Assembly: GCF_014701095.1 (NCBI RefSeq)
Contig: NZ_AP023439.1
Location: 4,948,001 to 5,012,000 of the forward strand
DNA: 64,000 nucleotides
Direction: 5' to 3'
DNA from: Streptomyces tuirus
GTDB lineage: Bacteria > Actinomycetota > Actinomycetes > Streptomycetales > Streptomycetaceae
In this document: piece after piece, positions 50,113 to 55,280 of the stretch
Numbering within the stretch: the stretch's first letter is position 1
How the letters are laid out: each line of letters opens with the position of its first letter
The notes under the pieces: generated by a model
Databases searched by the model: none
What the model saw: only the letters and a program-made list of their open reading frames with translations
Told to the model about the DNA's origin: nothing
Program-made: the position numbers and the translations under genes

Positions 50113-50718
50113 ATGTTCGACCTCGCCGTCTTCGGCTCCCTGTTCCTGACCCTCTTCGTCATCATGGATCCCCCCGGGATCACGCCGATCTTCCTCGCGC
50201 TCACCGCCGGCCGCCCCGGCAAGGTGCAGAAGCGGATGGCCTTCCAGGCCGTCTGTGTCGCCGGTGGTGTGATCACCGTGTTCGGGCTCCTCGGGCACCA
50301 GATCCTGAACTATCTGCACGTGTCCGTGCCCGCGCTGATGATCGCGGGCGGTCTGCTGCTTCTGCTGATCGCGCTGGATCTGCTCACCGGGAAGACCGAC
50401 GAGCCGAAGCAGACCAAGGACGTGAACGTCGCCCTCGTGCCGCTGGGCATGCCGCTGCTGGCCGGGCCCGGCGCGATCGTGTCGGTCATCCTCGCCGTGC
50501 AGAAGGCCCACAGCGTCGCCACCCAGGTGTCCGTGTGGACCGCGATCCTCGCCATCCACGTCGTGCTGTGGCTGGTGATGCGCTACTCGCTGGTGATCAT
50601 CCGGATCATCAAGGACGGCGGTGTGGTCCTGGTGACCCGTCTGGCCGGCATGATGCTCTCCGCGATCGCCGTGCAGCAGATCATCAACGGCGTCACACAG
50701 GTGATCCAGGGGAGCTGA
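50113..50718 (+). CDS. MarC family integral membrane protein
   Basis: 201-residue protein with six predicted helices, starting MFDLAVFGSLFLTLFVIMDP. Conserved MarC features DPPGITPIFLALT and GMPLLAGPGAIVSVIL are present. Function of the family is unclear; MarC itself is not needed for drug resistance. It is convergent with the protease-hydrolase gene, nine bases between stop codons. Confidence 0.92.
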   Translation: MFDLAVFGSLFLTLFVIMDPPGITPIFLALTAGRPGKVQKRMAFQAVCVAGGVITVFGLLGHQILNYLHVSVPALMIAGGLLLLLIALDLLTGKTDEPKQTKDVNVALVPLGMPLLAGPGAIVSVILAVQKAHSVATQVSVWTAILAIHVVLWLVMRYSLVIIRIIKDGGVVLVTRLAGMMLSAIAVQQIINGVTQVIQGS

Positions 50719-50727
50719 CGATCCCCG

Positions 50728-52845
50728 TCAGGGCCTCAGGATGCCGCCGATCTCCTGGGCCGCCTCGGGGTGGCCGAGGTACTCCTCGATGTCGTGCGCG
50801 CGGTCGCGGCCGTTGGTGACGGGCGGCTGGGTGAGCTTCCCCCACCGTTCGTCCTCCAGGGGGCAGCCGATGGCCACCGCGTCGGTGGGGCACCAGACGT
50901 TCACCCAGTCACGCACCCGGGGCGGCTGGTGCGGGCCCCGGGTCAGAAGCCGCTCGTTGACACCGTCCAGGCCGAGCGGGCTGCCCGCGGTGACCAGCAG
51001 GACGGGGTCGAGGCCCTCCGGGAGCCGGTTCAGGAGGTCCATGCCCACGACCGTGCCCAGGCTGTGCGTGACCAGCACCAGCTCGCCGCTGGTCGGCATC
51101 GTCTCCATGACGCAGTCCAGCACCGCCTGCCGCACGGCGCTGTCGCCGAGGTACAGGTCGACGTCCCGCAGGAACGTGGCGATGGTCCACTCGTCCAGGT
51201 CGGACCGGGCGGCCAGCCAGCTCAGCGGCCGGTGCAGCGCCCCGACCAGACCCGAACCAAAGCCCTCGGTGGAGGCCGGACCGTTCTGGGGCATGCCGGC
51301 CCGGGCGGCCGCCTCGTAGAGCAGCTGCTCGTAGGAACCCGTGGGGGACTCCGCGGCGAACACCTCGGCGGCAGCGGCGGCGCTCACCCGGTCGAGGCCG
51401 ATGGGCTCCGCCGTGCTCTCCCTGCCGCTCACGAGGCCGTGCAGTCTCGTGCCGTAGAACGGGAACCACACGTCCTGCGGGTCGAGCGTGGGCATCGACG
51501 CGAGGGTGAGCCCGCGGTTCAGGCCGGCCGTCCAGGACCGGCGGCGTTCGTCGGGGCATTTCTCCTGCTGGGCCCGGCCGTGCAGGAAGACCAGGTGCCG
51601 ACGGCCGCCGAAGGCGGTGCTGCGGGCCCGGAGCCCGACCCTGGGCCGCTGGGCCCCGGTCTCGCTCTCGGTGATCGGGACCGTCACCGGCACCCCGGGG
51701 ACCGGCGGGGTCGTGACGCCCGGTACCGCGCCCGCTACCGCGCTCGGCCGCTCGGGCCGGGCCCCGGGGGCCGCAGCGGGGACGGCCGGTGCGGTGGCCA
51801 TGGTCTGGTCCAGGCCGGCGTCCGGGCCCATCTCGGCCAGCAGGGCACGCCGAGCCGGGTCGAGGCCCAGCCCGGCCAGGTGCTTCAGGATCGAGCTGAT
51901 CCGGATGCCCTCGTTGGCGACCCACTCGATGGCGTCGTCGCCGTCGCCCTGCTGCCAGGGCCGGCCGTCCTTGCGCAGGACGCGGCCCTGGTCGTCCTTC
52001 TTCGGCACGCCGCTGTGGTGCAGCGCCACGACCTCCCACTGGTCGTTGAAGACGGGGGAGCCGGAGTTCCCCGGTTCGGTGTCGGTCGTGTAGTGGACGA
52101 AGTCGTCCAGCCGGACCAGCACCGCGTTGTCACGCAGCGCGATCTCCTTCAGCCGCCCCGAGGGGTGGCCGATGATGTTCACCTTCTCGCCGAGCACCAG
52201 CTTGCCGGTCTGCACGCTCAGCCGGTTCCAGCCGAAGATCTCGCCCGGGGCGGGGCCGTCCTGGGCGGGCTTCACCGCGACCAGGGCGAAGTCGAGCCGC
52301 CGGTCCGCGGCGAAGAACGTCCCGGGGTCGAGCTCCATCCGGACGACGGTGTCGGGCAGGTTGTCGGCCGTGACCTGGGCGTTGAACTCGGCGAAGCAGG
52401 TGCGGGCGAAGGCTTCGTCGGGCAGGACGTGGTGGTTGGTCATCAGCAGCCGCGGCGAGACCAGGAAGCCGGTGCCGTGCGGCAGCTCCCGGCCGTTGCG
52501 CCGCAGGGTGATCCGGGCGACCGTGGCTCCGGCACGGACCCCGCGCGGCAGGAAGCTCCAGGCCTGGAGCTCGTTGGACAGGTCGATGATCCGCTCGTTG
52601 GCGTCCGGCAGGTCCATGGCCTCGCGGTGGATGTCCGCCACCACCGCCGAGGGCGACAGACCACCCCGGCCGAGGATCCGGTCGGCGCGCACCGCCAGCG
52701 CGTCCGGGGAGTCCGGGAACCGCACGCCGGCCGCCATCCGGTCCTCGACCCGTTCGCGTTCCGTGGCCGAGTCCTCGTAGCGCCGCGCGGCCGCGTCGGC
52801 GGCCTGCTGGTGCAGTTCCTCGTGCGGCCGGTCCGTCACCGACAT
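50728..52845 (-). CDS. Fusion of trypsin-like serine protease and alpha/beta hydrolase
   Basis: 705-residue protein joining two hydrolases. A helical N-terminus (1 to about 100) precedes a V8/S1-type protease domain: GTGFLVSPRLLMTNHHV (His139), RLDFALVAV (Asp185) and TEPGNSGSPVF (Ser261). A Pro/Ala/Val-rich linker (about 365-435) leads to an alpha/beta-hydrolase half with ELVLVTHSLGTVVGMDLL (Ser about 595), a strand-loop LVTAGSPLGLDG and a later Asp/His-rich end. There is no signal peptide or membrane helix, so it is probably cytoplasmic. ATG 52845 has only a weak ribosome site. A small ORF with a terminator lies just upstream on the same strand. Protease-effector fusions of this kind occur in actinobacterial conflict systems; that assignment is inference. 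Confidence 0.85.
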   Translation of the reverse strand: MSVTDRPHEELHQQAADAAARRYEDSATERERVEDRMAAGVRFPDSPDALAVRADRILGRGGLSPSAVVADIHREAMDLPDANERIIDLSNELQAWSFLPRGVRAGATVARITLRRNGRELPHGTGFLVSPRLLMTNHHVLPDEAFARTCFAEFNAQVTADNLPDTVVRMELDPGTFFAADRRLDFALVAVKPAQDGPAPGEIFGWNRLSVQTGKLVLGEKVNIIGHPSGRLKEIALRDNAVLVRLDDFVHYTTDTEPGNSGSPVFNDQWEVVALHHSGVPKKDDQGRVLRKDGRPWQQGDGDDAIEWVANEGIRISSILKHLAGLGLDPARRALLAEMGPDAGLDQTMATAPAVPAAAPGARPERPSAVAGAVPGVTTPPVPGVPVTVPITESETGAQRPRVGLRARSTAFGGRRHLVFLHGRAQQEKCPDERRRSWTAGLNRGLTLASMPTLDPQDVWFPFYGTRLHGLVSGRESTAEPIGLDRVSAAAAAEVFAAESPTGSYEQLLYEAAARAGMPQNGPASTEGFGSGLVGALHRPLSWLAARSDLDEWTIATFLRDVDLYLGDSAVRQAVLDCVMETMPTSGELVLVTHSLGTVVGMDLLNRLPEGLDPVLLVTAGSPLGLDGVNERLLTRGPHQPPRVRDWVNVWCPTDAVAIGCPLEDERWGKLTQPPVTNGRDRAHDIEEYLGHPEAAQEIGGILRP

Positions 52846-52921
52846 GCTCCACCGTCCTGTTCCGTTCGCGCCTTGCCCCCTACGGCCAGTACGCCCCCGA
52901 CCAGGGACGTCCGCAACATCA

Positions 52922-52957
52922 CAAGCCCCCGCACGGCCGATGCCGGGCGGGGGCTTG
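52922..52957 (-). terminator. Hairpin between the small ORF and the protease-hydrolase gene
   Basis: Perfect 11-bp arms 52922-52932 and 52947-52957. It lies after the stop codon of the small ORF and before the start of the protease gene, so it would limit read-through or process the message. Confidence 0.8.
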
Positions 52958-52997
52958 CGAAGTCTGGGAGATGCGAAGTCCGGGAGAGCTGCGCGCG

Positions 52998-53150
52998 TTA
53001 TGAGGCCGTGGTCTCGGCCGGGCGGATCCAGAGGCGCTGCCCTACGGCGGCCGCCTGCTGGACGATGCGGTTGACGGAGGCGGCGTCCACAACGGTCGAG
53101 TCCACGGGTGTGCCGTCGACGTCGTCGAGTCGCATGATTTCGAAGCGCAA
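52998..53150 (-). CDS. Small conserved peptide, 50 residues, upstream of the protease-hydrolase gene
   Basis: The frame encodes a peptide containing FEIMRLDDVDGTPVDSTVVD and ending QRLWIRPAETTAS. TTG 53150 is favoured: AGGGAG stands six bases before it. The upstream ATG 53174 would give 58 residues, but GGAGG abuts it with no spacer. I recall near-identical short proteins in many Streptomyces genomes, which supports a real gene. There is no Cys and no signal peptide. Its place before a protease with its own terminator resembles a precursor or adaptor gene ahead of its enzyme. Function unknown. Confidence 0.65.
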   Translation of the reverse strand: MRFEIMRLDDVDGTPVDSTVVDAASVNRIVQQAAAVGQRLWIRPAETTAS

Positions 53151-53374
53151 GGGCTTCTCCCTTCGTCTGGTCATCCTCCTGAGGAGAACTACTTGTGTGC
53201 GGCCACCAGGCCCGTGCCAGGTGTTCCGTATGGGTCAACAGAGATGTGGGGGTCAAACATTCCCTACGCTAAGGAAATTTTTCGAACGGCTAATTACTGA
53301 CTCGTAAGAGTGTCGTTACGGGACCGACGGGGACCGGTTGTGTTCGCAGCGTGACCACCGGGACAATGGGGGTG

Positions 53375-54268
53375 ATGAACGACGACCTCGCGGCCCTCCA
53401 CACCCGCATCGACCACACCAACGAGCTGCTCCAGCGCATGCTCGCCGAGGTGGCGAAGACGCCCTCGACCCACGCGATCTTCGTCGATGCCGGGTATCTG
53501 TACGCGGCCGCGGGACGCCTCGTCGCCGGCACGGAGGACCGCCGCGCCTTCGACCTCGACGCCGAAGGCCTGATCGACGCGCTCATCGACAGGGCCCGCA
53601 CGATCTTCGCGGACAGCCGGCTGCTGCGCGTCTACTGGTACGACGGTGCCCGGCGCCGCATCCACACGGCCGAGCAGCAGACCATCGCGGAACTGCCGGA
53701 CGTCAAGGTGCGCCTCGGCAACCTCAACGCCAACAACCAGCAGAAGGGCGTCGACTCGCTCATCCGCTCCGACCTGGAGTCCCTCGCCCGGCACCGCGCC
53801 ATCAGCGACGCGGCCCTGCTCGGCGGCGACGAGGACCTGGTCTCGGCGGTGGAGGCGGCGCAGGGGTACGGCGCCCGGGTCCACCTCTGGGGCATCGAGG
53901 CGCCGGAGGGCCGCAACCAGGCCGAGCCCCTCCTGTGGGAGGTCGACAGCCAGCGCACCTTCGACCTCGACTTCTTCAAGCCGTACGTCTCCCGCCGCAC
54001 CGCCCCCGGCCATGAGACGACCGCGAACCGGCCCACCCGCGAGGACGTGCGGTTCGTGGGCGCGCAGATCGCCGCGAAGTGGCTGGCGGCACGCGGCCGG
54101 GACACGCTGATGGAGCTGCTGCCCGGGCATCCGTACCTGCCCGGGTCGGTGGACCAGGACCTGCTCGTGGAGGCGGAGGGCCTCCTGCAGTACTCGCTGC
54201 GCGGCCAGGCGGACCTCAGACGGGCGCTGCGCGACGGCTTCTGGGAGCATCTGCGAACGCAGTACTAG
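53375..54268 (+). CDS. NYN (LabA/PIN-like) domain nuclease-type protein
   Basis: 297-residue protein; ATG 53375 (MNDDLAALHTRIDHT) is preferred over GTG 53351, eight codons upstream. A short coiled-coil N-terminus is followed by the NYN fold: HAIFVDAGYLYAAAGRL (first acidic residue), YWYDGARRR, KVRLGN...KGVDSLIRSDL and LLGGDEDLVSAVEAAQ (paired Asp/Glu), which match the metal-binding acidic sites of PIN-like RNases. The C-terminus is helical (FVGAQIAAKWLAARG) and may bind RNA. Bacterial homologues are poorly studied. Confidence 0.85.
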   Translation: MNDDLAALHTRIDHTNELLQRMLAEVAKTPSTHAIFVDAGYLYAAAGRLVAGTEDRRAFDLDAEGLIDALIDRARTIFADSRLLRVYWYDGARRRIHTAEQQTIAELPDVKVRLGNLNANNQQKGVDSLIRSDLESLARHRAISDAALLGGDEDLVSAVEAAQGYGARVHLWGIEAPEGRNQAEPLLWEVDSQRTFDLDFFKPYVSRRTAPGHETTANRPTREDVRFVGAQIAAKWLAARGRDTLMELLPGHPYLPGSVDQDLLVEAEGLLQYSLRGQADLRRALRDGFWEHLRTQY

Positions 54269-54395: not shown

Positions 54396-55280
54396 CTACA
54401 TCCGACCCAGGCCGTCCCAGAAGTCGGCGAGGGCGTGGGCCGTGGGGAGCGGCTGGTCGGCGTTGGGGGAGTGCTCGGCTCCGGTGATGACCGTGCGATG
54501 CGCGTCCAGCCGCAGGGCCATGTCGTCCAGGATCGCCACCGGCCAGGTGTCGTCGTGCGCGCCCGACAGCACGTGGAACGGCAGCGGGACCGCGGCGAGT
54601 TCGGCCACGCGGTCCGGCTCGGTGCACAACTGGCGTCCGGTCGCGAGGAGTTGGGCAGGGCTGTGGCCCAGCCAGCGGCGGCGCAACTGGTCCTGGTCGC
54701 CGGGGCCGCGGGCGGGCCCGCCGACCTCCTCCGGCGGTCCCATGGCCTGGATGGCCTCCCACACCTGCGCCATCGACAGCACGGCGAGCGCGTCCCGCAG
54801 CAGCTTCACGCGCTGCTGCTGGGAGACGGAGATCTCCGCGGGGCCGGACGAGACCAGGGTGAACGAGATGAACGGGGAGTGGTCGAGCAGCACGGCCGCA
54901 CGGGCGATCTGCCCGCCGAGCGAATGCCCCACGAGGTGCACGGGCCCACCCAGCGCCTCGGCCTGCGCGAGCACGTCCCGCGCGAGTTCCCGCTGGGCGT
55001 AGGCGGACTCGTCGTCCAGGGGGCCGACCGACTCGTGCTGCCCCCGCCCGTCCACGGCGACGACCCGGTACCCGCGCTGTGCGAGCGGCTCGTGGAGCAG
55101 CCTGAAGTCCTCCTTGCTGCCGGTGAATCCGGGCAGCATCAGGACGACTCCCCGCGCCTGCGCACCCGCTTCCGGCGACGCCGCCGAGTCGACGACGGCG
55201 AACTCGCCGCGTGTGGTGCGCAAGGGGTAGGCGCGGGCGCCCGGGGGCGGGGGGAAGGCGGGCTGGGGGTGGGTGGTCAC
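54396..55280 (-). CDS. Alpha/beta-hydrolase
   Basis: 294-residue protein starting at GTG 55280. The fold is clear: VVLMLPGFTGSKEDF (oxyanion loop), GHSLGGQIAR (nucleophile Ser about 119), and SGAHDDTWPV with ITGAEHSPN giving Asp and His. No signal peptide. It could be an esterase or a haloperoxidase-like enzyme; the substrate is not predictable. Convergent with the NYN gene through the tandem repeats. Confidence 0.88.
   Translation of the reverse strand: MTTHPQPAFPPPPGARAYPLRTTRGEFAVVDSAASPEAGAQARGVVLMLPGFTGSKEDFRLLHEPLAQRGYRVVAVDGRGQHESVGPLDDESAYAQRELARDVLAQAEALGGPVHLVGHSLGGQIARAAVLLDHSPFISFTLVSSGPAEISVSQQQRVKLLRDALAVLSMAQVWEAIQAMGPPEEVGGPARGPGDQDQLRRRWLGHSPAQLLATGRQLCTEPDRVAELAAVPLPFHVLSGAHDDTWPVAILDDMALRLDAHRTVITGAEHSPNADQPLPTAHALADFWDGLGRM

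Follow-up and report, generated by a model that had tools for sequence, protein, structure and literature searches.

The 64,000-nt stretch of Streptomyces tuirus DNA analysed here (the window) contains, on its minus strand, a short open reading frame located above a gene for a trypsin-like protease with a hydrolase-like C-terminal part. This arrangement raises the question of whether the small gene serves the enzyme or constitutes a unit of its own. The elements on which the original prediction was built are present in the sequence as described: the frame itself (from TTG 53150 or ATG 53174 to 52998), the 152 bp that separate its stop codon from the ATG of the protease gene (52845) on the same strand, and a perfect 11-bp hairpin (52922-52957) between the two genes. 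The reading that we favour, and regard as rather probable, is that the gene stands alone as a transcription unit, has a stress promoter of the SigR type and encodes a binding protein with a predicted compact beta-beta-alpha-beta fold. The features of the locus are summarized in Table 1.

Table 1. Features of the peptide locus (positions refer to the window).
Feature	Position	Strand	Remarks
MarC-family membrane protein gene	50113..50718	+	usual convergent downstream neighbour
Trypsin-like protease with C-terminal hydrolase-like part	50728..52845	-	at this site in few relatives; outside the peptide unit
Perfect 11-bp hairpin, terminator-like	52922..52957	-	conserved stem downstream of the peptide gene, assigned to the peptide unit
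Peptide CDS (50 residues)	52998..53150	-	TTG start, TAA stop; NTG start kept, codon-position bias, intact in relatives
Ribosome-binding site GGGAG	53157..53161	-	within conserved GACGAAGGGAGAAGCC; kept ahead of the start codon
Leader hairpin GTTCTCC-TCA-GGAGGAT	53173..53189	-	ATG 53174 in its 3' arm
Putative SigR-type promoter	53236..53264	-	-35 GGGAAT (53259-53264), 19-bp spacer, -10 GTTG (53236-53239)
Conserved 33-bp block, GTAATTAG..CGAAAAATTTCCTTAGCGTA	53265..53297	-	abuts the -35 on its upstream side
NYN-domain protein gene	53375..54268	+	divergently oriented next to the peptide gene in most Streptomyces loci; in several other genera, no copy detected here
Alpha/beta hydrolase gene	54396..55280	-	same-strand upstream neighbour across the family

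The peptide gene is, with near certainty, real and easily missed. As judged from sequence comparison, its frame is under strong purifying selection at the protein level. When 49 other same-genus loci were compared with the window over 44 codons, substitutions at codon positions 1, 2 and 3 numbered 180, 46 and 509, respectively, and 438 codon changes were synonymous versus 165 non-synonymous. Lack of conservation, or stop codons within the frame, had been named beforehand as grounds for discarding it; neither was encountered, the frame being conserved and intact in relatives.

The codon at position 53150 is NTG in 189 of the 190 distinct loci (ATG, TTG and GTG in 148, 31 and 10, respectively, with a single GCG) and, without exception, in a set of 50 same-genus loci (29, 15 and 6). 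The alternative start, ATG 53174, was rejected: among 160 loci with at least 80% identity, just 65 carry an ATG in the same frame at a distance of exactly 24 nt on the upstream side. Because the NTG is kept while the upstream ATG is found in so few of the loci, the protein is taken to be the 50-residue form. The TTG 53150 start, for which a good ribosome site had been noted, is upheld by the conservation of the NTG. The early codons of the frame are unusually fixed, codon 7 being CGA in 117 of 138 distinct frames; CGA is a rare codon in Streptomyces.

Of 122 distinct leaders, 113 can form a stem of at least 5 pairs ahead of the ribosome site, versus a shuffled mean of 32.6. This leader is conserved as DNA and, in some lineages, its hairpin is altered on both sides (ATCCCC/GGGGAT, CCCGTG/CGCGGG), as would be expected if the product were the RNA itself, acting in regulation through its leader hairpin, and the frame were incidental. 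We find this reading scarcely credible, since substitutions concentrate on third positions and amino-acid motifs are retained between genera. Some lineages have short leaders. In other genera (including L178, L180, L184, L187-L190, L198, L199, L203 and L204) a longer leader was observed, with a motif of approximately TNAC-N6-GCAA-N7-GANGC in 15 aligned sequences, up to ~220 nt upstream of the start codon; it is possibly a structured leader RNA. A search of 15 loci gave no Rfam family at gathering score. In the window, one sub-threshold hit, to Pseudomonas P6 on the opposite strand at a hairpin of the locus (17.9 bits versus 50), was dismissed.

We also examined the distribution of the peptide. 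Matches were obtained in 272 of 295 same-genus genomes (E up to 0.001), which substantiates the view that this is a family common in Streptomyces; the peptide is absent from the other 23. Among the same-genus genomes listed, all but two have a single match. At the level of the family, 57 of 61 genomes representing 17 of 17 genera are positive, two of these genera (g2 and g5) by weak matches alone (E 0.00007 to 0.009). Five of the g2 and g5 matches were fetched: four (L195, L206, L207 and L217) lie inside the usual gene block and one (L194) outside it. In these figures the unnamed and named genome sets overlap, identical sequences alone having been merged, and in all counts a lineage is judged from neighbour identity.

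Class-level searches outside the family (246 and 394 genomes) revealed no convincing member. They scored 28 and 17 candidates, respectively, in each genome, a depth at which distant members could be missed. The weak matches that they produced, in 4 genomes (E 0.0009-0.008) and in 10 (E 0.003-0.007), were all partial and were taken as chance. No credible paralogue was detected within the genome of the window. A phage search with the peptide gave no match, and a plasmid search gave one, on a replicon of Embleya at a place where nothing is annotated. Genome G319 has two further weak peptide relatives (L196 and L197) at places without the gene block, which may represent paralogues in its genus.

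In a complementary search for marC, 30 genomes were examined, most of them picked because the peptide was missing there; 19 were positive at the E limit. No peptide match was present beside marC in 15 of these 19 loci (L256-L263 and L265-L271), of which 13 have the alpha/beta hydrolase gene within ~560 bp of marC. Several of the genomes with peptide-less marC loci are smaller than 6.5 Mb. Given its absence from the 23 genomes and from these 15 marC loci, the gene is dispensable in some lineages.

Gene order was checked in 37 loci, mostly from other genera. The usual order comprises (i) a miaE-like gene, (ii) a DEAD helicase gene, (iii) the alpha/beta hydrolase gene, (iv) sometimes the NYN gene, (v) the peptide gene and (vi) marC, PHP and DUF6758, the last part being inverted in several genera. 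In S. coelicolor, SCO5166 is described in the literature as a putative helicase. Many of the 3-kb loci from other genera contain the peptide and alpha/beta hydrolase genes, with NYN not found. Of the 37 loci, L194, L196 and L197 have none of the usual block genes.

The protease-hydrolase gene is not a regular component of this block. The N-terminal part of its product matches Pfam Trypsin_2. The C-terminal half resembles a lipase-type hydrolase by its HSLG motif, recognized by eye, and has no Pfam match. In a rival reading that follows the original prediction of a link with the enzyme, the peptide would be its precursor, activator or inhibitor, and both would be expressed from one operon in which the hairpin stops part of the transcripts. 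Besides the common strand and the short interval seen in the window, this proposal can draw on 5 of the 80 named loci, where the protease adjoins the peptide; each of the 5 has NYN and marC genes close to those of the window. Adjacency was also noted in 7 of 50 same-genus loci (one fragment included), a set weighted towards close relatives of the window. A broader search of 150 same-genus genomes, with 25 candidates scored per genome, detected relatives of the N-terminal part of the protease in only 7; they adjoin the peptide in 4 genomes, while in the other 3 they are located on another contig or megabases away, which argues against a functional pairing. The same is true of L208, where the protease is reduced to scraps beside an intact peptide. 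The suggested check, namely whether peptide matches lie next to trypsin-like proteases, therefore revealed no co-occurrence beyond close relatives, and a functional unit of peptide and protease was not borne out.

The distance between marC and the peptide gene is ~100 bp in most loci and ~2.25 kb in the protease-bearing named loci (L107, L109, L124, L127 and L177). L174, a close relative of the window by its neighbours, has no protease, and the two sequences diverge, by eye, shortly past the hairpin. From these comparisons, the protease looks like a recent insertion at the locus.

The hairpin downstream of the peptide gene is retained far more widely than the protease. Stems of at least 8 were found in 186 of 189 distinct downstream regions and of at least 10 in 161, versus 31 and 2 of 189, respectively, with one shuffle per region; the median position is 25 nt past the stop codon. 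A simple scan revealed no T-run terminator, and the stem is not followed by a T run, which sets the hairpin apart from terminators of the E. coli type. Since it is present with or without the protease, its most likely role is to terminate the peptide unit, and not to attenuate an operon; the view that the small gene has a terminator-like hairpin of its own is supported. We consequently judge a role of the peptide as precursor, activator or inhibitor of the protease to be very improbable.

The published SigR consensus is GGAAT-N18-19-GTT (PMC9205884). Upstream sequences were counted as 190 distinct 250-nt regions derived from 233 loci (tblastn E up to 1e-8, a limit that excludes the most distant peptide members) and compared with 20 Markov-simulated sets. 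GGGAAT-N18/19-GTT occurs in 161 of the 190 regions versus a simulated mean of 0.3, with a spacer of 18 in 142 of them and of 19 in the remaining 19; the shorter form GGAAT-N18/19-GTT occurs in 176 versus a mean of 1.0. The 14 regions lacking the latter form inside 250 nt include 6 in which it lies farther upstream, at 269-328 nt, possibly by chance, 2 that carry GGGAAG in place of GGGAAT, and 6 that show none. A looser promoter pattern is absent from 6 of 46 upstream regions of other genera, and the element is present also at loci where the NYN gene was not found.

Within the genome of the window, GGGAATN{18,19}GTTG gives 20 matches versus 4 for a reversed control pattern. The frames below these matches (picked by script, with the first 110 residues scanned) include those of thioredoxin reductase (trxB), a SigR homologue, a proteasome ATPase, RbpA and a Rv2466c-like protein; other matches sit in open frames and may be due to chance. 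It is likely, on the strength of these promoter elements, that the peptide gene is under SigR-type control.

The 33-bp block adjoining the -35 element is more conserved than a sigma site needs, and is a candidate activator site or UP-type element. Among the aligned rows listed, the upstream alignment reads GTAATTAG-n-CGTTCGAAAAATTTC-n-TTAGCGTAGGGAATGTTTG, then CGTTG. A 26-nt core (AAATTTCNTTAGCGTAGGGAATGTTT), spanning the block and the -35, has a single occurrence in this genome even when as many as 3 mismatches are allowed, and the block was not seen upstream of the 19 other promoter matches. This uniqueness speaks for another ECF sigma factor, or chiefly an activator bound at the block, as the driver of the gene, with SigR not being the main regulator. 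We consider such regulation unlikely, though well worth bearing in mind: the spacing and both promoter elements fit SigR, and neither the full HrdB consensus pattern nor the WblC pattern (GAAAWY / TKGMNN / TANNNT) occurs in any of the 190 upstream regions.

The protein that this SigR-type unit would produce was characterized by alignment and modelling. In the rows from other genera, the alignment begins with MRFEI and closes with an IRP motif, and residues A33, G37, I42, R43 and P44 are invariant in the 29 aligned rows. From the same 29 rows, AlphaFold2 predicted a beta-beta-alpha-beta arrangement (strands 2-8, 15-22 and 39-44, helix 23-36) with a mean pLDDT of 90.9. When the peptide was searched as a single sequence, neither NCBIfam nor Pfam assigned it a family at E values up to 1, and it represents, by these comparisons, a family without an entry in the protein libraries searched. 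A PDB sequence search with the alignment gave chance-level matches only (best E 0.22), and two fold searches with the predicted model gave no significant match (none at E up to 0.001 in one, a best Z of 5.2 in the other), so that no partner is indicated. As a lead, several small docking or inhibitor proteins are present among the low-scoring fold rows, including weak matches of the RNA polymerase epsilon / Gp2-like fold (4njc_A, E 0.71; 4llg_M, Z 4.3). A literature text search for the string MRLDDVDGTPVD found no match, and nothing tied to the peptide appeared in those parts of the literature that we consulted on S. coelicolor genes and RNAs near its guessed place, or on SigR and small RNAs. 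Cysteine is absent from 40 distinct Streptomyces peptide sequences; a C-terminal cysteine occurs in some other genera and is not conserved. A role as a thiol carrier is thus unlikely. We give about even chances to the peptide acting by docking on a partner.

In the proposed mechanism, the gene would be transcribed in thiol-oxidative or antibiotic stress by SigR, or by an ECF sigma factor closely resembling it. SigR controls the thiol-oxidative stress response of S. coelicolor, and antibiotics that inhibit translation induce it as well (PMC4921905). The GGGAAT-N18/19-GTT promoter would drive a single-gene unit, probably helped by the AT-containing conserved block just upstream. The resulting mRNA would be short, begin with a leader that holds a hairpin and a strong ribosome site, encode the 50-residue protein and end at the conserved downstream hairpin. 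The peptide may then be an adaptor or inhibitor that docks on another protein or on a complex, and not an enzyme or redox carrier. A bolder version, which we regard as improbable, is that this family-wide effector, made by SigR under stress, binds RNA polymerase or the ribosome much as Gp2 or the epsilon subunit does and resets gene expression, its composite promoter using a dedicated upstream block. If the main reading is true, a family-wide 50-residue protein without a library family would be a missing part of the SigR response, and one that is simple to test. The conservation of the block beyond the sigma elements raises the question of whether a further activator operates at some SigR promoters.

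Several known systems may be compared with this unit. In published WblC promoters (PMC7157823), GAAAWY precedes a TKGMNN -35 by three bases, and the -10 is TANNNT. The AT-containing sequence upstream of the peptide -35 recalls WblC/WhiB7 promoters; the published layout, however, is that missing from the upstream regions counted above. RNA polymerase epsilon (YkzG), T7 Gp2, the UDG inhibitor p56 and ApcC-type linkers appear in the fold lists of the peptide at low scores. With Z values under 5 and no sequence match, they point to no more than a common arrangement. RbpA, an RNA polymerase-binding protein and SigR target, is likewise a small protein with the same promoter type, but no sequence relation to the peptide was seen, Pfam, which includes RbpA, having assigned the peptide to no family. 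The SigR regulon of S. coelicolor includes trxB, hrdD, moeB, rbpA and sigR, according to the literature. The peptide gene differs from it in the extra conserved block abutting the -35, and in a product with neither a conserved cysteine nor a library family. It resembles the regulon in having GGAAT-N18-19-GTT elements at the published spacing, a pattern shared in this genome by trxB, the SigR homologue, rbpA and the proteasome ATPase.
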